A DNA stretch of 64,000 nt from an uncultured Flavobacteriaceae bacterium. Its GTDB lineage: Bacteria; Bacteroidota; Bacteroidia; Flavobacteriales; Flavobacteriaceae. Each line of letters begins with the position of its first letter. The stretch's first letter is position 1. The DNA lies in assembly GCA_913062575.1 (NCBI GenBank), contig CAJXVT010000003.1, positions 1-64,000 on the forward strand. Direction: 5' to 3'. This document shows, one piece after another, positions 931-44,405 of the stretch. Made by a program: the position numbers and the translations under genes. The notes under the pieces were generated by a model. That model was not told the origin of the DNA and did not search any database. It worked only from the letters and a program-made list of their open reading frames with translations.

Positions 931-2334
931 TTAAGCTTCTTTGGTTGATTTAAATTCTGGGTTCAATTGGGTTGGAATAGGCGCATTTGTTTCTTTCCAC
1001 CAATTTTTTAAGAGTAGTAATAACTCTGCTGTTTTCTCTTTGTTCTGTTCAGCTATATTATTTTTTTCACCAATATCACTTGCTAAATTATACAACTCCA
1101 GTTCATTATTTTCAAAGTAATAATGTAATTTCCAATCTCCAACTCTAACAACTGAACCAGGTCTTGTTCTAAATAAAGGGTCTCTATTTTCATTGTTTTT
1201 TACCTTGTAAGCTTGAAGATAGATTGGAAAGTGCCAAAACAAAGGCCTTTCTAATATATTTGTTTCCTCTTTTAGAACAGGTAAAATACTATTTCCATCT
1301 AGTTTATGTTGGGTAAGATTAATTCCTGCCGCTTCTAATAACGTGGGAAATAAATCCATATTCGTAATTGGAATATCAGAAGTTGTGCTTGCTTTTATCT
1401 TGTTTTTCCAAACAAAAAAGAAAGGTTCTCGAATGCCTCCTTCATAATAACTTCCTTTTCCTGCTCTTAAGGGATGTTGATTTGTGATTCCGAATAACCC
1501 ACCATTATCTGATGTGAAAACGAGCAATGTATTGTCAAGTTTCCCCGCAGTTTTTAAAGCTTCAATTAACAATCCAATATTAGTATCTAAATTTTCAATC
1601 ATGGTTGCATACCCAGCATTATTTTGTCCATTTGAAGCTTTCTTATGTTCATATTTAGTAAGTAAACTTTTGATTGGTTGTATTGGTGTGTGTACAGCAT
1701 ACGGTGCATAATTCAAAAAGAAAGGTTGTTTTACAGTTGCAATGTGTGCAATAGTTTTTTCCATAATTGCATCTGTCAACTGTGTTTTTTTGCCTGCTTC
1801 TAATGTTACATTTTTATAAGGTGGATAATAACTTCTGGGATGCCCATTATTTGCGCCACCTATATTAATATCAAAACCATAACGTAAAGGATCTTTACTA
1901 ATATGCCATTTTCCTGCATGAATGGTGGTATAGCCTTTTTCTTTTAAAACTTCTGAAATGGTTATGTGTGTGTGTGCTAGAACCGTAGTGTTTTTTATAG
2001 GAATCAATTTTCTGTTTTTTGATTTTCCTCTTTCAGAAGATCCAACTGTATAGATATTATGTCGAGTAGTCCATTTACCGGTCATTAAACTAGCTCTACT
2101 TGGCGCACAATTGGCAGAAGCAGCATAGCCGTTTGTAAATACTTTTCCTAGTTTTGAAAGTGCGTCAATATTTGGGGTTTCATAATAGCCACTTCCCATA
2201 TACCCAACATCTTTCCAACCCATATCATCAACATTTATAATGACAATATTTGGCTTTGATTCTGCCTTTTCTTGAGAGCAAGATGAAACAATAAGACTCA
2301 ATAATAAAAAGGCAACTAGTTGTAGTTTTCTCAT
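931..2334 (-). CDS. Secreted sulfatase (family S1, Cys-type), lipoprotein signal
   Basis: 467 aa; CAPSR sulfatase signature (SANCAPSRASLMTGKW), NVDDMGWKDVG metal-binding start, signal peptide with SSCS lipobox. Confidence 0.9.
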   Translation of the reverse strand: MRKLQLVAFLLLSLIVSSCSQEKAESKPNIVIINVDDMGWKDVGYMGSGYYETPNIDALSKLGKVFTNGYAASANCAPSRASLMTGKWTTRHNIYTVGSSERGKSKNRKLIPIKNTTVLAHTHITISEVLKEKGYTTIHAGKWHISKDPLRYGFDINIGGANNGHPRSYYPPYKNVTLEAGKKTQLTDAIMEKTIAHIATVKQPFFLNYAPYAVHTPIQPIKSLLTKYEHKKASNGQNNAGYATMIENLDTNIGLLIEALKTAGKLDNTLLVFTSDNGGLFGITNQHPLRAGKGSYYEGGIREPFFFVWKNKIKASTTSDIPITNMDLFPTLLEAAGINLTQHKLDGNSILPVLKEETNILERPLFWHFPIYLQAYKVKNNENRDPLFRTRPGSVVRVGDWKLHYYFENNELELYNLASDIGEKNNIAEQNKEKTAELLLLLKNWWKETNAPIPTQLNPEFKSTKEA

Positions 2335-2477
2335 TTTTTATTCGATTTGGTTGATTAAATTGATGATAAATAGTGTTTTAAACCATATCAATATATAAGA
2401 TTCTAAAGATAGATTTTTATATTAATGAGGCAAAATAAAATCAAAAATCAATTTGCTATTTGTTGTATATTTGAACA

Positions 2478-3338
2478 ATGAGTAAAGTCAAAATTATAGA
2501 ATGTCCACGAGATGCTATGCAAGGAATAAAAACCCATTTTATCTCTACACAAGATAAGGCGGACTATATCAATGCTTTATTGCGTGTTGGTTTTGATACC
2601 ATAGATTTTGGGAGTTTTGTATCGCCAAAAGCGATTCCGCAAATGCGAGATACTGCTGCAGTACTTTCAAAGCTAGATTTGTCTTCTACAAATAGTAAAT
2701 TGTTAGCAATTATAGCAAATGTACGTGGAGCAAATGACGCTGCTCAGTTTGAAGAGATTGATTATTTAGGCTATCCTTTTTCTATTTCAGAAAATTTTCA
2801 AATGCGTAATACGCATAAAACCATCAATCAATCTATAGAAGCTCTACAAGAAATTTTAGCCATTGCAACCCGATCAAATAAAGAAGTAGTTGCTTATTTA
2901 TCTATGGGATTTGGAAATCCGTATGGAGATCCTTGGAATGTGGATATCGTAGGCGAGTGGACAGAGAAATTATCAAATATGGGCGTGAAGATTTTATCAC
3001 TTTCAGATACTATTGGTAGCTCAACTCCTGAAGTGATTGATTATTTGTTCTCTAATTTAATTCCGAAATATCCAGAGATAGAGTTTGGTGCACATTTACA
3101 TACAACGCCAACTTCTTGGAAAGAAAAAGTAGATGCCGCTTATAAAGCAGGCTGTCATCGTTTTGACGGTGCTATGATGGGTTATGGAGGTTGTCCAATG
3201 GCAAAAGACGATTTAACTGGTAATATGCCAACAGAAAAATTATTGTCTTATTTTACATCCCAAAAAGCAGAAACAGGTATCAGACCGATGAGTTTTGAAA
3301 GCGCTTATAATGTGGCGATGGATGTTTTTAATCATTAA
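2478..3338 (+). CDS. Hydroxymethylglutaryl-CoA lyase
   Basis: 286 aa; ECPRDAMQG start, FGSFVSPKAIPQM, GAHLHTTP and GCHRFDGAMMGYGGCPMA motifs. Confidence 0.88.
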   Translation: MSKVKIIECPRDAMQGIKTHFISTQDKADYINALLRVGFDTIDFGSFVSPKAIPQMRDTAAVLSKLDLSSTNSKLLAIIANVRGANDAAQFEEIDYLGYPFSISENFQMRNTHKTINQSIEALQEILAIATRSNKEVVAYLSMGFGNPYGDPWNVDIVGEWTEKLSNMGVKILSLSDTIGSSTPEVIDYLFSNLIPKYPEIEFGAHLHTTPTSWKEKVDAAYKAGCHRFDGAMMGYGGCPMAKDDLTGNMPTEKLLSYFTSQKAETGIRPMSFESAYNVAMDVFNH

Positions 3339-3370
3339 CTAAGATTACCACCTTGAGATTAAGTAAGTCT

Positions 3371-3396
3371 GTCATCTTGAGCGCAGTCGAAAGGTC
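3371..3396. repeat. Degenerate flavobacterial-type intergenic repeat (TCATCTTGAGCGCAGTCGAAAGGT)
   Basis: Short intergenic sequence with imperfect dyad, preceded by a truncated half copy (CCACCTTGAG at 3349-3358). Confidence 0.5.
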
Positions 3397-3415
3397 TTTT
3401 TAATAAATATACACT

Positions 3416-4921
3416 ATGAAATCAATCAAATCTATTCTGTACGTTTTATTTATCTTATTACTGCTGTCATGTTCTAAAGACGATGGTAAAATCGACTTCA
3501 CTTTTTTACAAGTAAACGACGTTTATGAAATTGCCCCGATACAAAACGGAAAGTTTGGTGGAATGGCACGCGTAGAAACGGTACATCAAGAATTATTAAA
3601 AGAAAACCCGAATACCTTATTGGTAATGGCAGGCGATTTTTTAAATCCCTCTTTATTGGGAACTGTAAAATATAATGGAGAGCGAATTAAAGGAAAGCAA
3701 ATGATTGAAACCATGAATGCCATGAATTTTGATTTGGTTGCTTTGGGGAATCATGAGTTTGATTTAAAAAGTCATGAACTACAAAAGCGCTTGAATGAAA
3801 GTACCTTTGAGTGGATTTCTGGAAATGTATTAGAAAACAAAGATGGAAAATTTGCTCCCTTCGCAAAAGTAGAGAACAACCAAAAACATAATGTAAATGA
3901 CACCTTTATAAAAGAGCTTACAGATGCAGATGGAACTACTATTTCTGTAGGATTTATAAGTGTTTGTATTCCGTCTAATCCACAAGATTTTGTGAAATAT
4001 CAAGATGTTTTTATGGAAGTAAGAAATGATTATGATCAATTAAAAGACATTGTTGATGTTGTAATTGGATTGACACATGTTAAAATATCTCAAGACAAAA
4101 AAATCCTAGAAATGTTGCCAAACATTCCGCTTATTATGGGTGGTCATGAGCATACAAACATGCTTGTGCCAGTAGGAAAATCATTTGTAGCCAAAGCAGA
4201 TGCCAATGCAAAAACGGCTTATATCCATAGATTTTCTTTTGATAAGAAAACGAAGAAAGCAGTTGTAACATCTGAGTTAAAAGAGATCAATGAAGCAATT
4301 GTTGCAGATACAAGGGTAGGAGCCATAGTAGATAAATGGCAAGTGATTTTAAAAACAAAAATAAAAGAGATTATTAAAAACCCAGATGCAGTTATTTATA
4401 CAGCAAAAACTCCATTAGATGCAAGAGATAAACAAATTAGAAGCACCCAAACCAATATGGGAGATTTGATAACCAAATCCATGTCTTTCGCTTTTGACAG
4501 CAACGTAGATTGTGCCTTGGTAAATGGAGGATCTATTAGAATCGATGACGAATTAGCAGGTGCAGTTACAGCAGTTGATATTTTTAGAGTACTGCCTTAT
4601 GGTGGCGCGATCTTAAAAGTAAAAATAAAAGGACATTTATTGCAAAAAGTACTTGAGTATGGTGTGAATGCAGCTGGAACTGGTGCGTATTTACAACGCT
4701 ATAATGCTAAAAAAGTTGATGGAAACTGGTTGGTGAATGCTAAAAAAATCACCCCATCTAAAACCTATACAGTTGCCTTTTCTGATTACCTTTTAAAAGG
4801 ATTCGACATTCCTTTTTTATCAGATAAAAGCAAAGGTGTTCTTTCTATTTACACCCCAAAAGGAACCCAAACCGCTGCTGATATCCGCAAAGCGGTAATT
4901 TCTTATCTAAAAACATTATAG
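3416..4921 (+). CDS. Bifunctional metallophosphatase/5'-nucleotidase (UshA-like lipoprotein)
   Basis: 501 aa; LLSCSKD lipobox, VMAGDFLNPS, LGNHEFD, GGHEHT, NGGSIR motifs. Confidence 0.88.
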   Translation: MKSIKSILYVLFILLLLSCSKDDGKIDFTFLQVNDVYEIAPIQNGKFGGMARVETVHQELLKENPNTLLVMAGDFLNPSLLGTVKYNGERIKGKQMIETMNAMNFDLVALGNHEFDLKSHELQKRLNESTFEWISGNVLENKDGKFAPFAKVENNQKHNVNDTFIKELTDADGTTISVGFISVCIPSNPQDFVKYQDVFMEVRNDYDQLKDIVDVVIGLTHVKISQDKKILEMLPNIPLIMGGHEHTNMLVPVGKSFVAKADANAKTAYIHRFSFDKKTKKAVVTSELKEINEAIVADTRVGAIVDKWQVILKTKIKEIIKNPDAVIYTAKTPLDARDKQIRSTQTNMGDLITKSMSFAFDSNVDCALVNGGSIRIDDELAGAVTAVDIFRVLPYGGAILKVKIKGHLLQKVLEYGVNAAGTGAYLQRYNAKKVDGNWLVNAKKITPSKTYTVAFSDYLLKGFDIPFLSDKSKGVLSIYTPKGTQTAADIRKAVISYLKTL

Positions 4922-5060
4922 CTAAATATAAGTATTTCAAATACTTAGGTTTTTATCCTTGTTTTTATTTAAAATAGTTCTAAATAAACTTTTTTTATTC
5001 TATTTGGGTGTGTATTTTTGCGGCATAAATAAATACTATTTTAAATCAATCTAAATAAAA

Positions 5061-6221
5061 ATGAAAAGAATTTTATTCTTTGCTTTCGCTAGTTTATCGT
5101 TAGGACTAGGAGCACAGACCTCTAAAGACAGTATTACAAATCCACAAAATCAAGTGAATGCTGCACAGCAATTATTAGCATCAAACCTAAACCAAAAAGG
5201 GTTAACTATTGGTGGTTATGCAGAAACCCATTACAACAGAGCAACCGGAAAAAATGCAAAGTTAGATGTACACAGAATGGTCCTTTTATTAGGATATAAA
5301 TTTAATGACAGAACACAATTCATCACCGAATTAGAGTTTGAGCACGTTAAAGAGATTTATGTAGAGCAAGCTTTTATCCAATACAGCTTAACAGATAACG
5401 TAAACTTAAGAGCTGGTTTAATGTTGGTGCCTATGGGAATTGTAAATGAATACCATGAGCCAACAACGTTTAATGGAGTAGAAAGACCAAGTATGGACAA
5501 ATCTATTGTTCCTTCTACTTGGAGAGAAATTGGATTGGGCCTTTCTGGTAGGTATAATGATGCCTCTTTACGTTATCAAATATATATGTTTAATGGTTTC
5601 ACTTCTAAAAATGGAAGTAAATTATTAGGTGGCTCTAACGGATTAAGAAACGGAAGACAAAAAGGAGCAGAATCTACCATGAACAGTGTAAACTTTGCTG
5701 GTAAATTAGATTATTACGGATTGCCAGGATTGCGTTTAGGATTGTCTGGATACGTTGGAAGAACACAATCTGACAAGTCTATTGAAGATCTTGATGGAGC
5801 AGATGTTGGTGTAGCAATGATTGGTTTAGATGCACGTTATGCTAAAAAACGTTTCTCTGCAAGAGGACAGTTTATCCACGCAAGTATTACAGATAGTGAT
5901 GCATACAATACCTATTATGGTTCTGATTTAGGAAGCGCATTACAAGGTTGGTATGTAGAAACAGCTTATAACTTATTATCTCAAGACAAAGAAGAGCAAT
6001 TAATTGGTTTTGTACGTTATGAAGATTTTAATACACATGCTACAACAGCTGGGAATTTAGCACAAAACTTAAGCTATGATAGAAGCGAATGGACATTTGG
6101 GTTTACGTATAAAGTAGCACCAGGAGCAGCTTTTAAAGCAGATTATCAATTTAAGAACAATGCCGTTGCAGGTTCTGAAACAATAAAACAATTAAACTTA
6201 GGATTTGGAATCTGGTTCTAA
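5061..6221 (+). CDS. Outer-membrane porin (phosphate-selective porin O/P-like)
   Basis: 386 aa; signal peptide, GGYAETHYN start of barrel, C-terminal GFGIWF aromatic terminus. Confidence 0.75.
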   Translation: MKRILFFAFASLSLGLGAQTSKDSITNPQNQVNAAQQLLASNLNQKGLTIGGYAETHYNRATGKNAKLDVHRMVLLLGYKFNDRTQFITELEFEHVKEIYVEQAFIQYSLTDNVNLRAGLMLVPMGIVNEYHEPTTFNGVERPSMDKSIVPSTWREIGLGLSGRYNDASLRYQIYMFNGFTSKNGSKLLGGSNGLRNGRQKGAESTMNSVNFAGKLDYYGLPGLRLGLSGYVGRTQSDKSIEDLDGADVGVAMIGLDARYAKKRFSARGQFIHASITDSDAYNTYYGSDLGSALQGWYVETAYNLLSQDKEEQLIGFVRYEDFNTHATTAGNLAQNLSYDRSEWTFGFTYKVAPGAAFKADYQFKNNAVAGSETIKQLNLGFGIWF

Positions 6222-6244
6222 GAAAAACAATGTGTAATTACTAC

Positions 6245-6280
6245 AAGCTAGTATAAGGTGAAAACTTTGTGCTAGCTTTT
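6245..6280 (+). terminator. Intrinsic-terminator-like hairpin downstream of the porin gene
   Basis: AAGCTAG...CTAGCTT stem extended by further pairs (with GU) around a TGAAAA loop, followed by TTTT. Confidence 0.6.
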
Positions 6281-6316
6281 AGTGTTACATAAAAAAGAAC
6301 CACTTATTTTTGTAGT

Positions 6317-6853
6317 ATGATTTTAAAAAGAGCTTTTAGTATTATTTTACTGTTGATGTCAGTTCAGTTACATGCTTTTCAGTTGTCAAAATCGATTACT
6401 AAAAAGGTTCAAAAAGAACTGGTAAAGACGTTTGGTGATAAAGAACTGATCTTAGAAACAATTGCTATTACTGATGAGGTGAGTGCAAAACTGTATCAGA
6501 AAATAAAAAACAACACGCTTTTTAAAATCATTCAAAAAGAACAAATAATCGGCTATGCTTATATTGATAAAGCACCAAGTAAAACAGATGCATTTGATTA
6601 TTTAATTATCATTGATACAAACCTTATTATCAAAAAAACGAAAGTTTTAATTTATAGAGAAGATTACGGCGGTGAAATTGGAAGTAAACGCTGGTTAAAA
6701 CAGTTTATAGGAAAATCTTCATCAGATAATTTAAAGTATGAAAGAGAAATTATAGCAATATCTGGAGCAACCATTTCTGCGCGTTCTATGACCATTGCCA
6801 TAAATACCTTTTTAAAAAACCTTTTTGTACTTAAACAACAACATATTTTATAA
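6317..6853 (+). CDS. Exported FMN-binding domain protein
   Basis: 178 aa; signal peptide and ISGATISA flavinylation-type motif. Confidence 0.75.
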   Translation: MILKRAFSIILLLMSVQLHAFQLSKSITKKVQKELVKTFGDKELILETIAITDEVSAKLYQKIKNNTLFKIIQKEQIIGYAYIDKAPSKTDAFDYLIIIDTNLIIKKTKVLIYREDYGGEIGSKRWLKQFIGKSSSDNLKYEREIIAISGATISARSMTIAINTFLKNLFVLKQQHIL

Positions 6854-7347
6854 TGCAGCTACACGGAATCATATCGCAATTTCCTAAAGAAGTAAAAGGC
6901 TTATTAATTGCTTTTATTATTTGCTTAAGTATTGGGTTTTACTCAGGAATTCGTTTTGTAAATGATACCAGTAATTCAAACCCCCAGGGAATTGAGGAGC
7001 GGTATTTAGGGAATGAAGATGTGGAAGATGCAACCGTAATGAAATTCAAAAAAAGTAGAGGAGAAGTAATGACCATGGTACACAACCATATCTTATCGCT
7101 TTCTGTGATCTTTTTTCTGTTAGGCGGAATCTTATCTACTACAGGTATTAATAAGAAATTAAAATCATTTTTAATGATAGAGCCTTTTGTATCCATCCTA
7201 TGTACTTTTGGTGGAATCTATTTTATGTGGACAGGCATTGTTTGGATGAAATATATTATTATGCTTTCAGGGGTATTTATGACTTTGACATTTGTAGTCT
7301 CTACGCTATTAATTCTTTTAGGATTAAGATCTCCTAGGGCCTCTTAA
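6853..7347 (+). CDS. Multi-pass membrane protein of unknown function, coupled to FMN-binding gene
   Basis: 164 aa, about 4 predicted TM segments; ATG overlaps upstream stop (TAATG). Confidence 0.65.
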   Translation: MQLHGIISQFPKEVKGLLIAFIICLSIGFYSGIRFVNDTSNSNPQGIEERYLGNEDVEDATVMKFKKSRGEVMTMVHNHILSLSVIFFLLGGILSTTGINKKLKSFLMIEPFVSILCTFGGIYFMWTGIVWMKYIIMLSGVFMTLTFVVSTLLILLGLRSPRAS

Positions 7348-7402
7348 GTGCCTTAGTTTCCATTTTATTTTGTTACTTTGAGTAATGATAAATTACTGCA
7401 TA

Positions 7403-7437
7403 AAAAAAAGATACCATATTTTTTACGGTATCTCTTT
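7403..7437. terminator. Bidirectional terminator between convergent genes
   Basis: AAAGATACC-N-GGTATCTCTTT hairpin flanked by A and T tracts. Confidence 0.65.
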
Positions 7438-7460
7438 AGTCTGTAAATGTTAAGTAGGGG

Positions 7461-9755
7461 TTAATTTATTAATGTGAATTTTCTTTCTAATTTGGTTGTT
7501 GAACTTCCTCCTATAAAAACTTTATAATCGCCTGGTTCGATAACAAAATCTCCATTATTATTGTAATAACCAAGTGTTTCTTTGTTTAAATTAAAATGAA
7601 TAGTTTTTGTTTCTCCAATTTTTAACGCTGTAAGTTCAAAACCTTTTAATTCTCTTACAGGTCTTGTTATGCTAGCAACAAGGTCTCTTATGTATAGTTG
7701 TACAACCTCTTTACCGTCATAATTTCCTGTATTGGTTACATCTATAGATAATTTAATCGTGTCATTTATAGAATATATACTTTCTTTTAAATTGAAATTA
7801 CTATACTCAAAAGTAGTATAACTTAAACCATGTCCAAAAGGATAAAGTGGTGTGTTTTTTACATCTAAATAGTGGGACCAAAATACATTGTTATCTTTAT
7901 CTATAGGTCTTCCAGTGTTTTTGTAGTTGTAATAAATTGGAATTTGACCTACATTTCTAGGGAAAGTCATAGGTAGTTTTCCACTGGGGTTGTAGTCGCC
8001 ATAAATTACTTGTGCAACGGCGTTACCAGTTTCAGTTCCAAGTTGCCATGCTTCAACAATGGTCGGAATATTTTCTGCTGCCCATTCAATAGCAAGAGGC
8101 CTTCCATTGTTTAAAACCAGCACAATATTTTTGTTTACTTTGTAGATCTCCTCTAGTAACTCTTGTTGTAATCCAGGTAAATCTAATTTGGTTCTACTTC
8201 TTCCTTCTCCACTTTGAAAACCATGTTCACCGAGCACCATAACTACAACATCCGCTTTTTTTGCAGTGCTAATAGCATCTTTAAACTCGCTTCTATCAGT
8301 AGTGTTTATGTTTACATGCTTAATAAACTCAGTATTACCTATACTTACGTCAGTTCCTTTCTTATAAGTTAAACTGTTTCCTGTATATTTTTTCATCCCT
8401 TCTAAAACAGAAATAGCGCTATTGTTGTCTGAAGCAATACGCCAGCTACCTAATGGACTATTACTGTCGGCAGCCAAAGCTCCTATTAAGGCAATTTTTT
8501 GACCTTCTTTTTTTAGTGGTAGTAATTGTGTGCTGTTTTTTAAAAGAACAATAGATTTTTTTGCCATATCCAATGCAGCTGCTCTATGAGCTGGATTTCC
8601 AATGTTATTTTTTTCATTTTCAAGATTACAATATTTGTATGGATCATCAAAGAGTCCTAATTCAAATTTTACACGCAAAATTCTCTTTACAGCATCATCA
8701 ATAATAGATTCTTTAACTGCCCCCTCCTTAACTAAACGTACCAATTCATTAATATAAACATAGCTTTCCATATCCATGTCAGAACCTGCATTTGCAGCAA
8801 GTATTGCCGCTTCTTTTTTGTTTTTTGCGTGGCCCCAGTGTATCATTTCAGTAATTGAAGCCCAATCAGATACAACAAAACCATTGAAATCCCATTTTCC
8901 TTTTAAAATATCTCTTTGTAAGTATGAATTTCCTGTTGCTGGAACACCATTTAATTCATTAAAAGCATTCATAAATGTTTTAACATCAGCATCTACAGCA
9001 GCTTTAAACGGAGGAAACACGATGTTATGAAGTGTTGAAGTTCCAATGTCTACTGTATTGTATTCTTTACCGGCTTCTGAAAATCCATATGCAGCAAAAT
9101 GTTTTGCACAAGCCGCAATTGTATTTGGTGCTGATAAATCATCTCCCTGAAAACCTTTTATTCTGGCAACAGCAATAGCACTACCTAAAAATGGGTCTTC
9201 ACCAGCGCCTTCCATAACTCTCCCCCAACGTGGATCTCTAGAGATGTCTACCATAGGAGCAAATGTCCAGTTGATACCTGAAGCTGAAGCTTCAATGGCA
9301 GCAATTCGAGCAGATTTTTCTAGCGCCGTTAAATCCCAACTAGCAGCTTCAGCTAAAGGAATTGGACTAAGGGTTTTGTAACCGTGAATCACATCAAACC
9401 CAATAATTAAAGGAATTCCAAGTCTAGATTCTTCTACGGCTATTTTTTGTACTTTTCTAACCTCTTCAGCTCCTCTTACATTAAGCATAGAGCCTATATA
9501 GCCCATTTTTAGATGTTCATATTTTAATTCTGCATTTCCTTCTTCTGGAGCAGGGCCAGTTACATCCCAAAAACCATTATATTGATTCATTTGCCCCACT
9601 TTCTCTTCAATTGTCATTAAACTTAAAAGGGAGTCTACTTTTTCTTCTAGTATTTGTTCTTTGATACCAATCATACTACTATTGTTCTTTTTATCAAAAC
9701 ATCCATAAAGAACAATAATTAAACAAATAGCAATTATGTGTTTTATGTGTTTCAT
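7461..9755 (-). CDS. GH3 beta-glucosidase (BglX-like), lipoprotein
   Basis: 764 aa; LYGC lipobox, RDPRWGRVMEGAGEDPFL, GFVVSDWASITEM nucleophile region, C-terminal fibronectin III-like domain. Confidence 0.92.
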   Translation of the reverse strand: MKHIKHIIAICLIIVLYGCFDKKNNSSMIGIKEQILEEKVDSLLSLMTIEEKVGQMNQYNGFWDVTGPAPEEGNAELKYEHLKMGYIGSMLNVRGAEEVRKVQKIAVEESRLGIPLIIGFDVIHGYKTLSPIPLAEAASWDLTALEKSARIAAIEASASGINWTFAPMVDISRDPRWGRVMEGAGEDPFLGSAIAVARIKGFQGDDLSAPNTIAACAKHFAAYGFSEAGKEYNTVDIGTSTLHNIVFPPFKAAVDADVKTFMNAFNELNGVPATGNSYLQRDILKGKWDFNGFVVSDWASITEMIHWGHAKNKKEAAILAANAGSDMDMESYVYINELVRLVKEGAVKESIIDDAVKRILRVKFELGLFDDPYKYCNLENEKNNIGNPAHRAAALDMAKKSIVLLKNSTQLLPLKKEGQKIALIGALAADSNSPLGSWRIASDNNSAISVLEGMKKYTGNSLTYKKGTDVSIGNTEFIKHVNINTTDRSEFKDAISTAKKADVVVMVLGEHGFQSGEGRSRTKLDLPGLQQELLEEIYKVNKNIVLVLNNGRPLAIEWAAENIPTIVEAWQLGTETGNAVAQVIYGDYNPSGKLPMTFPRNVGQIPIYYNYKNTGRPIDKDNNVFWSHYLDVKNTPLYPFGHGLSYTTFEYSNFNLKESIYSINDTIKLSIDVTNTGNYDGKEVVQLYIRDLVASITRPVRELKGFELTALKIGETKTIHFNLNKETLGYYNNNGDFVIEPGDYKVFIGGSSTTKLERKFTLIN

Positions 9756-9889
9756 ATTTTTTGTTTTGGGTTGAAATTTTAAAAGGTAAAAGTAAATTAA
9801 AGACAGAATAATTAGTATGCGAAAATCATCAATTGTTAGTATTATTTTTAATTTTGCTGTTTTATATTGTTAAAAGTGACAAAATAGTA

Positions 9890-10762
9890 CTATAGTACTT
9901 TTTGAATTCCGTTAAATTCGTGTTTGAATTCGCTAGGAGTGCATTTTTTTATTTTCTTAAACATTCTGTTGAAGTTTGCGATATTATTAAAACCGCATTT
10001 ATATCCGATTTCGCCAATACTCAAATCGGTTTCTATCAAGAGTCTTGTGGCGAAACTAACTCTAGTGTTGTTAATGTAGGATACAAATGTTTTTCCTGTT
10101 CTTTTTTTGATAAACCTATTAAATGAAACAGGGCTCATGTTTACGAGTTCAGAAATTTCATCTAGAGAAATTTTTCGATGAAAATTTTCTTGTACATATT
10201 CATATACTTTTTTTATCTTGTCACTGTTTTCGAAATTACTAGAGCTTGAGAATGAGGTGGATAAGGCTCTTTGGTTTCTGGAAATGGATAAGTCGTGTAA
10301 AATAGAGATAAATTCTAAAAAGTAATCTATACCTGATAGCTTTGGGAGGTTCATTAACCTGTGCATGACGTCTTTAGTTACTTTTTCAGAAAATAAAACT
10401 CCATGAATAGAATTATTAAATAAATCTCTAATAGATTTAAAAACTCTTCTAGATAGTAGTTTTTCATCCAATAAATCATTGTGTATATGAATGGTTACTT
10501 CATGAATTTCCTTACTTTTACATTCGTGTAATTCCCAGCAATGAGGGAGATTTGGACCAACTAAAACAAGTTCGTATTCGCCAATTGTTTCCATGTGGTC
10601 ACCGATTATTCGTCTAACTCCTGCGCCTTTATAGATGAGGTTTAATTCATATTCTGGGTGAAAATGAATTGGAAAATCAAAGTTATCTTTAACGCGATAA
10701 TAAGACAAAAAACTATCTGTAGGTGATAGTTGAGTAATCTCTCTATGTATGTTTATGTCCAT
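9890..10762 (-). CDS. AraC-family transcriptional regulator with cupin N-terminus
   Basis: 290 aa; HFHPEYELNLIYKG cupin, two C-terminal HTH motifs (ISLDEISELVNMSPVSFNRFIKKRTG; IGEIGYKCGFNNIANFNRMFKK). Confidence 0.9.
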   Translation of the reverse strand: MDINIHREITQLSPTDSFLSYYRVKDNFDFPIHFHPEYELNLIYKGAGVRRIIGDHMETIGEYELVLVGPNLPHCWELHECKSKEIHEVTIHIHNDLLDEKLLSRRVFKSIRDLFNNSIHGVLFSEKVTKDVMHRLMNLPKLSGIDYFLEFISILHDLSISRNQRALSTSFSSSSNFENSDKIKKVYEYVQENFHRKISLDEISELVNMSPVSFNRFIKKRTGKTFVSYINNTRVSFATRLLIETDLSIGEIGYKCGFNNIANFNRMFKKIKKCTPSEFKHEFNGIQKVL

Positions 10763-38131: not shown

Positions 38132-38953
38132 TTAATCGATTTTGTGTCCGCAATTATAACAAAAATCAGCGTCATCATTATGGTTTTCTTTCAAACAATT
38201 TGGGCAAGATTGTGTGTTTGTATGAATTTTTTCGGCTTTAACTATTTCTGTACTCACAATTCCGGTAGGTATTGCAATAATTGCATACCCCATAATCATA
38301 ATAATACTTGCTATAAACTGACCAATTGGAGTATGGGGCGCAATGTCTCCGTAACCAACTGTTGTTAAAGTTACAATTGCCCAATATACACTTCTAGGAA
38401 TGCTAGTAAACCCATTTTCTTCACCTTCTATCATGTACATTACTGTACCTAAGATGATACAAATAATAACTACAAAAAATAAGAATACCGCAATTTTGGC
38501 TTTACTTGCTCTTAGTGCAACTAGCAATCTATTAGAGGCACCAATATATCTTGCTAACTTTAAGATTCTAAAAATCCGTAACAATCTTAACGCTCTTAAG
38601 GCTGCAAGATTGTGAGACCCAACTAAAAACAATGATAAATATTTAGGAATGGTAGATAGCAAATCTATGATACCATAAAAACTAAAGATATATTTAATGG
38701 GGTTTTTTATAGATATTATTCGAAGAATGTATTCTATAGAAAAAAGAAAGGTAATTACCCATTCTGAGATATCTAAAAAACGATGGTATTTGGTATCAAA
38801 GCTTTCAACACTTTCTAACATTACCAAAACAACACTGGCAAGTATTGCAATTAATAAAATAACATCAAATAGTTTACCACCATTGGTGTCGGCTTCATAA
38901 ATTACTTCATGAATTTTATGCCTCCAAGAGGTATTTTGTTTTTGGTCTTTCAA
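38132..38953 (-). CDS. Voltage-gated-type potassium channel with C-terminal zinc ribbon
   Basis: 273 aa; S4-like LRALRLLRIFRILKLARY, selectivity filter TVGYGD, C-term CPNC...CYNCGHKID. Confidence 0.9.
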   Translation of the reverse strand: MKDQKQNTSWRHKIHEVIYEADTNGGKLFDVILLIAILASVVLVMLESVESFDTKYHRFLDISEWVITFLFSIEYILRIISIKNPIKYIFSFYGIIDLLSTIPKYLSLFLVGSHNLAALRALRLLRIFRILKLARYIGASNRLLVALRASKAKIAVFLFFVVIICIILGTVMYMIEGEENGFTSIPRSVYWAIVTLTTVGYGDIAPHTPIGQFIASIIMIMGYAIIAIPTGIVSTEIVKAEKIHTNTQSCPNCLKENHNDDADFCYNCGHKID

Positions 38954-38988: not shown

Positions 38989-41900
38989 TTAATTCTTAAT
39001 AAATATAAAATCTCCACCTTCATCACCAACTCTATAAATTGCTTTATGTAGTGGTGTGCTAGGGCTGTTGTTCATTACAGCTTCTTCTATTCTGTTAAAT
39101 AGTTGTCCAGCAGACATGTATAGGTTTTTGTTGTTTTTTAACCTGTCCAATAAATACTCAAGAAAAACACTTTTGTTAGGTACTGTTTTCAATGCTCCGC
39201 TAGTAATTGCTCTTCTACTTTTTAACTCGTATTTCTTTTGAATAGATTTTGGAGATCTCTCCAATGAACGTTGATCACTAAAGATACTTCCACTAAAACA
39301 TGCATCAGAAATTAGTAGGGTATGTTTAGATTTAATTGATCTTATAAAATCTGCAATCTGCGAATTACTAATTAAATTCAAATCAAATTCCATATCTGCA
39401 TCAGAAGGCAACCAATAGCCAATTCTATTGGTTTCATCATAGACACCATGTCCTGCATAAAAAATTAATACATTGTCTTTGTCAGTAACCTTTTTCTTTA
39501 ATTTACTAAACTCTTTAATAATATCATTTGCTTTCGGGTTGTTGTTTAAGAACACAACATTTTCTCTTTTAAAGTTGTAGTTATCAATTAAAACATTTCC
39601 TAGGTCTTTCGCGTCTTTAGTTGGTAATCCTTCTAAACCAGTAATTGCCCCATCACCATAATCACTGACTCCAATTAACAACGCATAATATTTTCCAAAT
39701 CCTGTATCAATTTTTTTATCTTTTGTAACAACAATTGGATCTACTATAACATCTGGAGATTTTCTTTTGATGGTAAATGTTTTTGTTGAGGAAGCTTGTT
39801 TTAAATCTGTAGCTTTTACAATTAAATCATTAGTCCCAATCTTTAAAGGAACGTTTGCAGTAAATGTTCCATTTTCTAAAACAGTTGCCTCAATTCCATT
39901 AACAATTATTTCATAAATTCCATCTTTATCAGTTGCAATACCTTTTACGAGTATTCTTTTCGTTTTTACAATTTTAAATCCACGCTGTACAGTTGGTTCT
40001 GTTATTACAACAGCAGGTGGTGTATTAAAACTAGCTGCAGGATAGATTATGTTTAGGTAATTTATCGAGATTTCTTGTTTTTTATAAACACTAAATCCCA
40101 TGTAATTTCCAAAGAATGGACTATAGGGAGCTTCATTAATATATTGACCGTTGATGTAAATTCTTAAAAGTTTACCAGATTTAATTATTTTAATTCTGTT
40201 TTCTTGGTGAGAACTTGTTTTTAGTGTTGTTGTACTGGTCCATGGAATTAATTTGTTAGAAGTGTCGTTTTCTAATTTTCGTAGTAAATAACTACCACCT
40301 TTAGATAAAAATAAATCAAATTGGTTGGTGTTGTTCTTTCTCCCAAAAGAAAAAGCAACCGATCCGCTAGAGTCGCTTGTAAGTCTAGTAATAGACGTTT
40401 CAATAATAAAATCTCTACTCGTATCTACATCAATTTTTTTACTGATAAATGCACCGCCTTTTTCAGTATTACTTTTCAAGTATAATTTACCATTACTAAT
40501 GCTTGACTTTACATTTGTTAGATCTGTTAAGTTCCAACCATTATTATTATTTGTGAACCCTTCGTACAAAGGAACTTTTAAGGTATTTGTAGTAACAATA
40601 GTATTTGTAGCCTTCTTTAAATATTTAATAGTGATATTGTCAACTCCAATTTTTTGTTTATTAAAAACTACATACCCTAATCTATGCCCATAAAAAGACT
40701 CGAAATTTGTTTGTGTTAAGTACTTATTATTTACATAAAATTTATAATGGTCACCTTCTTTTCTGATTTTTAATCTATTTAAAACTCCATTTCCAGTTTT
40801 AACATGTGAAGATTTCACAAACTTTTTTATAATCTCTTCTTTATTGTTAACTACACGAACAATTTTATAATACCCATTACCAGTTAGATAAAATCTAAAA
40901 CTATTTTTGCCTTCTTTACCCCATTGAAAACCATAGGAGTAATTTGTAACTCCACTAATTTTTTTAATGTTGGTAACAATTTCAAAATCTCTAGAAGTAT
41001 CAATTGTTTTTGGAATGTTTATTGCCCAGCCTCCAGAGTCTTTTAAGTGTTCGAAATTATAGTAACTGTTAGCAACATCTGTTTTTTTATCTGATGTGTT
41101 ACCTAATGGCCAATTGTTTTTATTATCTGTAAAGTAGTCAGCTATAACGGTGTCTCCGGTGGCAATAGTTGGTGTGTTCTTTTTTGTGTCTTTTTGATTT
41201 ATATAGGTTACTTTAAAATTATCAATGGCAATTTTTTGATTGTTATAGACCATAAAGCCTAAATGTTTCCCCATAAATGGTTTATGAGTATATAAAGTCA
41301 AATAGCTGTTATTTACATAAAACTTAATAAAGCCTCTTTCTTTTTTTATTTTTAACGTGTTATAGGCATAGTTTCCTGTTTTTATTGCAGATGATTTCGT
41401 CCAATCTTTTAGAGAAATATATTTACTGTCTTTGTTTTGACCTATTGTATAAGAGCCATTTGAATTAATTATAAATATAAATTTATTCAAGTCGTCTTTT
41501 CTACCAAAAACAAAACCATAACCGTGATTGCTAATTCCACTTATCTTTAAGAATTTAGATTCAATTTCAAAATCCTTGCTCGTATCAATATTAATCTCTT
41601 TTGTTGATGTAAAACCTCCTTTTGTTTTTTTATGATCAATATAATATTTGTTGCTTTTTACTACTAATTCAGACGTATCTGAATTATTTGTTGTCCAGTT
41701 ATTTTTGTTTGTGGTAAAATCATCCTCCCATATAACAGTACTAGAAGTTGTTGTATTTGTAACTTTCTTTTTGACATCTAAATACGCCATGCTTAAGTAA
41801 GCAATATACACAGTTTGTTTATTATTAGCAGAAAACCCAATTTGATATCCATAAATTTTAGTAGTATAACTCGTATAAACAATTTTACTATTGATTAAAT

Positions 41901-42942
41901 ACTCTGTTTTGCTACCTTTCTTTCTTACTGTTAAGGTGTTAAAAACACCACTACCAGTTTTAATATGGCTAGATTTTGTCCATTTTTTAACAATCGTACT
42001 TTGGTTATTCTCATATTTAATTATGGTATATGAACCATTACCAGAAACGAGAAATGAATTACGGTTTTTAGTGTCTTTTCTTCCAAAAACTAACCCATAT
42101 CCATGATTTAATACGCCATTTACTTTTTTTATCTGTGCACTAATTCTAAAATCTCTTGAAGTATCAAATTTCTTTTCTATAGTAGAAGACCATGTACTAG
42201 TTACACTTTTATGCTCTAAGATATAATTACCTCCAGATACTTTAAACGTTGCATTTGCATCGTCTTTATGTGACCAATTATTATTGTTATTGTTAAATCC
42301 TTCAAATAAAATAGTTTTAGATTGTGTAGTTGTACTCTTACCTTGTTTAACTTTAAAATAATCTACAGCTACTTTTTGTTTGTTATAAACTAAAATTCCA
42401 ATTTTTTTACCAAAAAAGGGCTTAAAGCTTTGAGTTGTAACGAGTGTACCATTGATATAATAGTACATACTACTTCCTTTTTTTACAACTTTTAATTTGT
42501 TGTACGCATAATAACCAGTTTTTATACTGCTAGAAGTTGTCCAGGCCTTTATCGTTTTAAAAGTACCATCTTTTTTTTCTGAAACACGATATTGGTCCTT
42601 GCTTAAAACAAAATGATAGGTATTGTCACGGCCAATTGCACCATACATTAAACCGGTAGCATTTGTTTTTGAGCCTGAGATTTTTTGAAAAGACATTTCT
42701 ATTTCAAAATCTTTATTGGTGTCAATATTAATTTCTGGTGTCCTAACATTCCAATTTTTATCATCCCTAAAATGTTCAAAGTAATATTTACCATTTTTAA
42801 CTTCTAAGCTTCTGTCTGAACTTGTTGCTACAGGCCAAGTACCTTTAGTCGTAAAATGTTTACTATAAATCTCTTCTTGAGCATAGGTTGCAACGGTAGA
42901 TATTGATAAAAAGAAAGCTAATAGGATTATTTTAGTTTTCAT
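38989..42942 (-). CDS. Secreted multidomain caspase-family (peptidase C14) protein: five tandem ~190-aa repeats, Ig-like domain, C-terminal caspase domain
   Basis: 1317 aa; signal peptide to TYAQ; repeats aa 23-976; caspase domain KYYALLIGVSDYGDG...IFYAGHGVYDE...LLISDACFSGS. Confidence 0.88.
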   Translation of the reverse strand: MKTKIILLAFFLSISTVATYAQEEIYSKHFTTKGTWPVATSSDRSLEVKNGKYYFEHFRDDKNWNVRTPEINIDTNKDFEIEMSFQKISGSKTNATGLMYGAIGRDNTYHFVLSKDQYRVSEKKDGTFKTIKAWTTSSSIKTGYYAYNKLKVVKKGSSMYYYINGTLVTTQSFKPFFGKKIGILVYNKQKVAVDYFKVKQGKSTTTQSKTILFEGFNNNNNNWSHKDDANATFKVSGGNYILEHKSVTSTWSSTIEKKFDTSRDFRISAQIKKVNGVLNHGYGLVFGRKDTKNRNSFLVSGNGSYTIIKYENNQSTIVKKWTKSSHIKTGSGVFNTLTVRKKGSKTEYLINSKIVYTSYTTKIYGYQIGFSANNKQTVYIAYLSMAYLDVKKKVTNTTTSSTVIWEDDFTTNKNNWTTNNSDTSELVVKSNKYYIDHKKTKGGFTSTKEINIDTSKDFEIESKFLKISGISNHGYGFVFGRKDDLNKFIFIINSNGSYTIGQNKDSKYISLKDWTKSSAIKTGNYAYNTLKIKKERGFIKFYVNNSYLTLYTHKPFMGKHLGFMVYNNQKIAIDNFKVTYINQKDTKKNTPTIATGDTVIADYFTDNKNNWPLGNTSDKKTDVANSYYNFEHLKDSGGWAINIPKTIDTSRDFEIVTNIKKISGVTNYSYGFQWGKEGKNSFRFYLTGNGYYKIVRVVNNKEEIIKKFVKSSHVKTGNGVLNRLKIRKEGDHYKFYVNNKYLTQTNFESFYGHRLGYVVFNKQKIGVDNITIKYLKKATNTIVTTNTLKVPLYEGFTNNNNGWNLTDLTNVKSSISNGKLYLKSNTEKGGAFISKKIDVDTSRDFIIETSITRLTSDSSGSVAFSFGRKNNTNQFDLFLSKGGSYLLRKLENDTSNKLIPWTSTTTLKTSSHQENRIKIIKSGKLLRIYINGQYINEAPYSPFFGNYMGFSVYKKQEISINYLNIIYPAASFNTPPAVVITEPTVQRGFKIVKTKRILVKGIATDKDGIYEIIVNGIEATVLENGTFTANVPLKIGTNDLIVKATDLKQASSTKTFTIKRKSPDVIVDPIVVTKDKKIDTGFGKYYALLIGVSDYGDGAITGLEGLPTKDAKDLGNVLIDNYNFKRENVVFLNNNPKANDIIKEFSKLKKKVTDKDNVLIFYAGHGVYDETNRIGYWLPSDADMEFDLNLISNSQIADFIRSIKSKHTLLISDACFSGSIFSDQRSLERSPKSIQKKYELKSRRAITSGALKTVPNKSVFLEYLLDRLKNNKNLYMSAGQLFNRIEEAVMNNSPSTPLHKAIYRVGDEGGDFIFIKN
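40015..42876 (-). repeat. Five tandem protein-repeat units (about 42876-42313, 42312-41737, 41736-41149, 41148-40582, 40581-40015)
   Basis: Recurrent IDTSRDFEIE...YGFxFGRK...GxYxI...W(T)KSSxIKTGN...NxLKIxK...FYVNN...PFxGxxLGFxVYNxQKIAxD pattern in each unit. Confidence 0.85.
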
Positions 42943-42953
42943 AATTTTTTATT

Positions 42954-44405
42954 TTATTGATGATTCATTTCTATAAAAATAGGGACAACTTTGGCATTAC
43001 TACTGGTTGCTTTTGTAGTAAATGCAATTGTATTTTTTTCAAATTTAATATCACTTCCTATAAACATCTTGTATTGTAAGGCTTTTTTTACTCTAGACAC
43101 AAAATCGCCTGAGCCATTTTTAACTGTACTTACAACTTTATTAATGTCTAATTTTTCTTTACTGTATAATACACAAAGGATATCTCTTCCAGGCTTTGAG
43201 TCAAATTCTATAAAATAATCTTCATTAGGTAATGCTATTTCACTATTTGTATAGCTAAAGTAATCACTAAATTTATCAAACGGATATAATTTGCTTACAG
43301 ATTTATCTCCAGAACCATAACCAATTAAATAGACATAGCCTTTTTGTTTACTTTTTAAGTAGATTCTAAACTGAGTGCCAGACGTATAGCTTTTATCTAT
43401 TCTATACGTAGTACCAGTAGCTTTAACAATGTTAAAATTTCTTGAAGCATTGTTAGAAAGAGTTGGTTGCATATTGCTTCCATTACTTAATCGTAAAGTC
43501 ATTTCTCCAGCCAATGCATTATACTTAGTGGTTACATTTGTGTTTACATCAACCTTGGGTTTCTTGGTGTTGTCAATCAATACATATGCCGTTTTTGTTT
43601 GCAGCTTAAAATCACTGTATTTTACCCACATATATCCGCTATTTCCCCATTTTGTACCCCATGAGTTTAAGATTTCAAAAGCGCCTCCGTATTTGTAATC
43701 ATCATAACCTACAACTACCATTGCATGCCCGCCTAACCTTTTAGTCCCATTTGGTCCAGGCCAAACACCTTTTGCTTTATAGAAGGTCGAATAAATTTGC
43801 ATCCCTATAACTACGGGGTTTTTATTAGCAATTGCTTTTTTTACTTTTCCTACTAAATTATATGGGTTATCCCATTTTGCTAACCTTTCATAGGTTAAAA
43901 TAGTATTTTGTTTTGCTTTTTGAAGACCATTACTAGATGGTTTTGAAGCACAATTTGTAGCGTTATAACTAAAATCTTTTAATTGTAAAATACCATTTGT
44001 ATTTAACAGCTTCATTGCATCAGCTATATATGAGCCTTTTTTACAATTTACATCTCCTTTAAACTTTATTAGATTGTAAACAAATGCAGGAGAGAAAGTA
44101 TTCTGATTGATTTTTGTGCTATTATATTTCCAATCATTTTTTATAGCATAAGCAATAGTTCTTGCTCCATAACCACTTGCCCAACCAACACACGATGGTT
44201 GTCTTCCTTGGTTTCCAGGAGTTGGTGCAAAGGCTTTAATACTATAATTTTTTGGAACCGAAGTAACACTTCTAGTAATTAATGGAACGGTCTCAGTAAC
44301 AGATTCATATTTTTCTTTGTTAAAATCTAAACCTGTAAAATATTCCTGGGAACAAATAGCGCTGCTAAAAAGGATCAAAAAGAATGTTAGAGAAAACTTT
44401 TTCAT
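42954..44405 (-). CDS. Secreted papain-like (C1A) cysteine protease with DUF4384-like C-terminal domain
   Basis: 483 aa; signal peptide; NQGRQPSCVGWASGYG (Gln/Cys), RLGGHAMVVVGYDD (His), ILNSWGTKWGNSGYMWV (Asn); YVYLIGYGSGDKSVSKLYP...YFIEFDSKPGRDILCVLYS tail. Confidence 0.85.
   Translation of the reverse strand: MKKFSLTFFLILFSSAICSQEYFTGLDFNKEKYESVTETVPLITRSVTSVPKNYSIKAFAPTPGNQGRQPSCVGWASGYGARTIAYAIKNDWKYNSTKINQNTFSPAFVYNLIKFKGDVNCKKGSYIADAMKLLNTNGILQLKDFSYNATNCASKPSSNGLQKAKQNTILTYERLAKWDNPYNLVGKVKKAIANKNPVVIGMQIYSTFYKAKGVWPGPNGTKRLGGHAMVVVGYDDYKYGGAFEILNSWGTKWGNSGYMWVKYSDFKLQTKTAYVLIDNTKKPKVDVNTNVTTKYNALAGEMTLRLSNGSNMQPTLSNNASRNFNIVKATGTTYRIDKSYTSGTQFRIYLKSKQKGYVYLIGYGSGDKSVSKLYPFDKFSDYFSYTNSEIALPNEDYFIEFDSKPGRDILCVLYSKEKLDINKVVSTVKNGSGDFVSRVKKALQYKMFIGSDIKFEKNTIAFTTKATSSNAKVVPIFIEMNHQ

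Follow-up and report, generated by a model that had tools for sequence, protein, structure and literature searches.

What would a caspase do beyond the inner membrane of a bacterium, and with which partner would it work? The question is raised by a stretch of 64,000 nucleotides (the window) from an uncultured Flavobacteriaceae bacterium (contig CAJXVT010000003.1, positions 1 to 64,000), in which the gene for a 1317-residue caspase-family protein, P0001 (38989..42942, minus strand), is immediately preceded on the same strand, across a gap of 11 bp, by the gene for a 483-residue papain-like (C1) protease with a C-terminal DUF4384 domain, P0002 (42954..44405, minus strand). Both proteins are predicted to be exported. 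A preliminary description of the window dealt with the caspase and its repeats; it missed what tells most about the locus, the adjacent papain-DUF4384 protease, and also the exchange of N-terminal modules among the partner caspases. Weighing the evidence below, we lean towards a unit of two proteases located in the periplasm or envelope, in which the caspase would be targeted by an exchangeable binding module.

The genetic coupling of the two enzymes was analyzed in 99 genomes of the window's genus, where the named relatives are uncultured Polaribacter and Flavobacteriaceae. A caspase homologue is present in 22 genomes and a P0002 orthologue in 20, all within those 22 and in none of the 77 others (Fisher p 5e-19, a statistic that ignores kinship). 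One of the two carriers without P0002 is a cut contig (G031); the other (G034) has a repeat-bearing paralogue elsewhere, at a contig end, and its standard insertion site is empty (L149). The genes are adjacent, C1 then C14, at 19/19 assessable loci, the window included. The pair comes after an RNaseT gene, from which a transglutaminase-like gene often separates it, and in 17 of 30 genomes that lack the pair RNaseT runs straight into a K+ channel gene and miaA, which marks the empty site. On a tree of RNaseT and AlaR the presence of the pair needs at least nine changes, five of them forced by well-supported branches (shuffled mean ~15), and as judged from these sequences the pair has a patchy inheritance and was repeatedly lost or gained. 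At two loci (L057 and L058) both pair genes group together with support values of 100 and 98 and the housekeeping genes do not, a hint which suggests that the pair moved as a unit.

The association extends beyond the genus. In 7 of 10 genomes of the same family, the gene immediately downstream of C1-DUF4384 encodes an exported caspase of ~1090 residues that carries WD40-like repeats (identified in two scanned proteins) in front of a C-terminal caspase domain. In six of these seven the WD40-caspase is the only caspase matched by the Pfam search, a count that may overlook divergent members since the genus-type caspases of G001, G024 and G087 go undetected with PF00656 alone. In a scan of the phylum, caspases lie no more than three genes away at 7 of 8 loci where C1-DUF4384 is full-length and has a signal peptide. 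Outside the genus as a whole, the papain-DUF4384 protease has an exported caspase next to it or nearby in 14 of the 18 full-length cases examined in Bacteroidota; these counts leave out a leaderless C1 subgroup (L163, L169-L172), which has no caspase neighbour. The partner is of the WD40 type in G518, a multi-Ig-caspase (Ig, immunoglobulin-like) in G538 and G654, a caspase-PEGA protein in G410 and a caspase-TPR protein in G579, and two caspases lie near the protease in G623. All partner caspases that were aligned keep the catalytic His and Cys and both Asp residues of the predicted substrate pocket. As read from these sequences, the pairing is strongly conserved, not obligate, and the exchanged part is the N-terminal module of the caspase (ConA, that is concanavalin-like, WD40, TPR or Ig).

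Several of these loci hold further genes. At L160 (G514, 1178-9351) three exported Ig-caspases in tandem, of which the first carries TPR repeats, come after one C1-DUF4384 gene; at L168 (G623, 7489-10054) a gene for a CHASE2-SpoIIE phosphatase of 662 residues lies two genes downstream of the C1-caspase group; and DUF4230 proteins are encoded downstream of the WD40-caspase at L104 and L109 (Flavobacteriaceae). At L108 (G162, 5347-9905) and L106 (G212, 6944-9921), both from Flavobacteriaceae and without a neighbouring caspase, C1-DUF4384 is followed by a protein of ~160-180 residues of no known family and then by an M48 metallopeptidase, which has Sel1 repeats in G162 and TonB_C in G212; an ion channel gene comes next in G162. 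From its gene content this arrangement resembles a swap of the partner protease.

The architecture of P0001 agrees with the preliminary description, which had placed on this open reading frame, with an ATG start, a signal peptide, five repeats, an Ig-like domain and a C-terminal caspase; translation, Pfam and a repeat alignment put all of them exactly there. The signal peptide (aa 1-22, MKTKIILLAFFLSISTVATYA/Q; 42877..42942, minus strand, as are all the following features) was read from the sequence and is of type I, without a lipobox. It is followed by ConA-like repeats 1 (aa 23-210; 42313..42876), 2 (aa 211-402; 41737..42312), 3 (aa 403-598; 41149..41736), 4 (aa 599-787; 40582..41148) and 5 (aa 788-975; 40018..40581), delimited by repeat alignment and, for repeat 5, by modelling; by the Ig-like domain (aa 976-1066; 39745..40017), which matches Glucodextran_B above the Pfam cut-off (aa 976-1061, E 1.5e-10); and by the caspase domain (aa 1086-1290; 39073..39687), which matches Peptidase_C14 (E 1e-15, 58.5 bits vs a cut-off of 21.4). 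Mean identity to the genus orthologues is highest in the Ig domain within the C-terminal region (75%), followed by the caspase (64%) and repeat 5 (53%). The whole protein gave no match in the PDB by phmmer; profiles of the single domains were needed.

Signal-like N-termini are visible by eye in P0001 and in every intact orthologue of the genus, in line with the export claimed earlier, and signal peptides read in the same way predict that both P0001 and P0002 leave the cytoplasm through Sec. A location that was "extracellular or envelope" had been proposed; its envelope half is kept and its extracellular half is not supported, since neither the caspase nor its partner matches any Por-secretion or type IX sorting model in Pfam or NCBIfam. 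The periplasm is then the default location in Bacteroidota, and we infer that it is more likely than the cell surface for both proteins.

The catalytic dyad reported for P0001, H1165 (codon 39448-39450) and C1215 (codon 39298-39300), is intact, and together with D1110 and D1213 it is invariant in 19 caspase sequences of the genus. In profile alignments D1110 and D1213 coincide with conserved Asp residues of the metacaspases 4f6o and 6w8s, and published models of orthocaspases place two such residues in the substrate pocket that accepts basic residues (PMC6426788). Because of this match to the pocket of basic-specific orthocaspases and metacaspases, the caspase of P0001 is predicted from family knowledge to cleave after Arg or Lys. 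The preliminary description had set the protein apart from cytosolic metacaspases; at the level of the fold this contrast is not supported, as the nearest solved structures found by Foldseek are the metacaspases 7qp1 and 4f6o together with MALT1 (3v4o, TMt 0.70; range 0.63–0.70). The ratio of nonsynonymous to synonymous substitutions (dN/dS, rough throughout because dS is often >1) is 0.02-0.09 in the caspase domain, 0.06-0.15 in P0002 and 0.09-0.16 in the repeats and the Ig domain; at 0.02-0.15, both enzymes are by this estimate under strong purifying selection. The window's own caspase has a long end branch, and decay was considered and rejected, as the enzyme retains every catalytic and pocket residue and has a dN/dS of 0.05-0.07. 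Elsewhere in the genus, at L070 (G080:C3:84843-88184), frame breaks, from decay or assembly error, split the caspase gene within its repeats, beside an intact C1 partner.

In P0002, whose domains were assigned by Pfam, profiles and a model (pLDDT, predicted local distance difference test, 80), the catalytic residues Q66, C72, H227 and N247 are intact and invariant in 27 sequences. The best solved match is xylellain (3ois) both by profile (E 1e-23) and by fold, and cathepsins are matched as well. Pfam finds no inhibitory propeptide of the I29 type, and only ~25-50 residues precede the mature-like region. Within this short segment P41, R45 and S46 are invariant in 18/18 P0002 sequences of the genus, amid positions that vary. 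R45 precedes the catalytic C72 by 27 residues, and the mature N-termini of papain-type enzymes lie near the corresponding position, so that R45 is a candidate processing site. As a universal activation site it was rejected; it is absent outside the genus.

The five repeats of P0001, ~190 residues each, align over their full length with pairwise identities of 24-42%. They are not a product of chance, since a hidden Markov model built from them recovers 3, 4 or 5 copies in each of 17 intact orthologues; among 18 intact proteins six have five repeats, eleven have four and one has three. The first, fourth and last repeat positions form genus-wide clades or near-clades, i.e. they are orthologous by position, and the middle repeats turn over by local duplication, with gain and loss within the genus. 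The old expansion proposed earlier thus applies to units 1, 4 and 5 and not to the middle units. Over the repeats Pfam reports no family above its cut-off, with DUF1583_N, Laminin_G_3 and 3keto-disac_hyd as sub-threshold hits.

To give the repeats a fold, the C-terminal 530 residues (repeat 5, Ig domain and caspase) were modelled with AlphaFold2 (AF2) from an alignment of 21 homologues. The mean pLDDT is 79.7, repeat 5 is mostly at 83-95, and much of the linker between Ig domain and caspase (aa 1067-1085) is below 50; with a predicted template-modelling score (pTM) of only 0.46, the mutual placement of the domains cannot be read from the model. Foldseek matches repeat 5 to CBM66 of the Bacillus subtilis levanase (4b1m, TMt 0.69), to a beta-glucanase and to galectin-like folds, and a profile of 20 repeats, independently of the fold search, has the levanase CBM66 as its top match (E 0.003). 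Binding domains of clostridial neurotoxins stand lower in the Foldseek list; they share a common lectin-like sandwich, and we read no function into this match. Model and sequence profile together bear out the concanavalin/LamG-type sandwich first guessed from the letters, and identify the repeats as putative binding modules.

How does this arrangement compare with known systems? The bacterial orthocaspases and metacaspases (MEROPS C14; PMC6426788, PMC7475262) share the caspase fold, the His-Cys dyad and the two pocket Asp residues with P0001, and WD40, TPR and DUF4384 are known accessory or companion domains of orthocaspases (PMC7475262, PMC6426788). Those of cyanobacteria are described as cytoplasmic or membrane-bound (PMC7475262), whereas P0001 appears to be exported, carries ConA-like repeats and an Ig domain at its N-terminus, and has DUF4384 on a separate partner protease. 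The ConA-Ig-caspase architecture was not found among the bacterial caspases described in the literature we examined: no ConA/LamG arrangement is listed in PMC6426788 or PMC7475262, and the text of the Baltic Sea survey (PMC4933709) mentions none. The nearest precedent for a second protease combined with a caspase fold and DUF4384 are the alphaproteobacterial QC pseudo-orthocaspases, in which a trypsin-like domain, p20 and DUF4384 form one chain (PMC6426788); they are fusions of a serine protease with a non-canonical QC dyad, unlike the two separate exported enzymes described here with both active sites intact.

Gingipains RgpA and Kgp (C25; PMC10319874) are likewise exported cysteine proteases of Bacteroidota with a caspase-like fold, an Ig-like domain and adhesin repeats. 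In these proteins Ig domain and adhesins follow the catalytic domain, and a propeptide domain and a type IX C-terminal domain (CTD) are present, whereas P0001 belongs to C14 and has its Ig domain in front, and neither a propeptide domain nor a CTD was found in it. Membership in this group was rejected on the reversed order and on the absence of C25, cleaved-adhesin or CTD matches in Pfam and NCBIfam, and gingipains are kept as an analogy. The CBM66 of the levanase (4b1m/4azz), for all its likeness to the repeats, is ~20% identical to them and sits on a glycosidase, the repeats forming a tandem array on a protease; xylellain, of papain family C1, is without the C-terminal DUF4384 and the caspase partner that distinguish P0002. 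We found no description of a papain-caspase pair, or of Peptidase C14 in Polaribacter, in the literature searched, weak evidence given that few subscription papers were covered.

Based on these observations, we propose that 42954-44405 and 38989-42942 would constitute a unit of two genes, whose products, cysteine proteases from different clans, would cross the inner membrane and probably reside in the periplasm or on the inner side of the outer membrane. The N-terminal module of the caspase, here five ConA/CBM66-like sandwiches and elsewhere WD40, TPR or Ig, would be the targeting or sensing part, and Ig domain and caspase, joined by a flexible linker, would be the catalytic part with its predicted Arg/Lys cleavage. 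The two proteases may act on each other or on common envelope substrates; of the possible directions, the most likely would be from the caspase to the papain-like enzyme, which it would mature or set free. A more specific version, a zymogen relay in which the caspase module senses an envelope or environmental ligand, whereupon the caspase cuts the pro-segment of P0002 (at R45 in the genus) and frees its activity, we regard as unlikely.

Several findings weigh against the proposed unit or its parts: (i) R45 is missing from the C1-DUF4384 relatives that are paired with WD40-caspases, although these caspases keep both pocket Asp residues, and because same-pocket caspases are thus paired with relatives without R45, this residue is not a general activation site; (ii) C1-DUF4384 occurs without an adjacent caspase in G212, G374, G162, G621 and Persicobacter, where it is on two plasmids, of which the annotated one shows no caspase and the other is unannotated; (iii) solitary exported ConA-Ig-caspases without a C1 partner exist at L073 (G086, 6330-9212) and L075 (G377, 5907-7541), both scoring much higher with the Pfam caspase model (127-143 bits) and differing in what follows the catalytic Cys (DACRNNPF); and (iv) the modelled likeness to CBM66 does not establish that the repeats bind sugar.

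The two enzymes could instead be independent exported degradative proteases that are together only for co-expression, digesting for example proteinaceous matter or envelope debris, with the repeats anchoring the caspase to polysaccharide. The CBM66-like repeats would fit such a role, as would a lineage that is marine flavobacterial as judged by its relatives, an enzyme that is kept while the repeat number ranges from 3 to 5, and the tie of Bacteroidetes metacaspase genes to phytoplankton-rich waters (PMC4933709). We nevertheless consider this explanation rather doubtful: either partner alone is rare in the genus, digestive secretion would be without a known export route given that no type IX signal was found on either protein, and a caspase-type specificity pocket suggests limited and not bulk proteolysis. 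That the pair is a defence or programmed-death system, like the cytosolic bacterial caspases of conflict systems, is very improbable. P0001 does match the generic caspase profile of PADLOC (E 2e-12), and patchy presence, an empty site and a hint of joint transfer resemble defence cassettes, but the signal peptides mark the proteins as exported and not cytosolic, Pfam and the locus show no effector-associated, STAND or NTPase components beside the caspase, three scanned neighbours gave no PADLOC match, and the score against the EACC1-associated caspase family of NCBIfam (NF047832) is 71.3 bits, well short of the cut-off of 140. A phage origin was rejected, as no match was found in phages.

Genes downstream of the caspase raise a further alternative, in which the pair would belong to an envelope stress circuit. 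In 10 of 18 genus loci (L058, L059, L062, L063, L065-L070) an extracytoplasmic function (ECF) sigma factor of 176-180 residues and an RskA-type anti-sigma factor of ~262 residues are encoded co-directionally ~30-110 bp downstream of the caspase. The anti-sigma gene is present in 13/20 carriers vs 26/79 non-carriers (p 0.011, a statistic that ignores kinship), but it also stands at the site without the proteases in G009, G013 and G021, and in the window's own genome (only 68% complete) it was searched for without success. Such a circuit is accordingly improbable. As a third component of the unit, the sigma/anti-sigma pair had looked compelling in the 10 loci and was rejected on its presence at the site without proteases and on an enrichment that is weak and confounded by kinship. 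In the window itself the caspase gene is followed by a gene for a voltage-gated-type K+ channel (Ion_trans; 38132-38953, minus strand) with a C-terminal zinc ribbon, conserved beside miaA at the site; it too was rejected as a component, because channel and miaA reside there with or without the proteases.

Discussion of bacterial caspase homologues has mostly concerned cytosolic or membrane-bound proteins with a part in cell death and conflict, and partners are known for only a few of them. The locus described here provides an exported caspase with a frequent, catalytically intact partner protease across the phylum and a swappable binding module, and therefore partner, specificity and location are directly testable with two purified proteins. 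A two-enzyme cutting unit outside the cytoplasm seems so far to be undescribed, and if it is true that one enzyme activates the other, caspase-initiated protease cascades would exist outside the bacterial cytoplasm.

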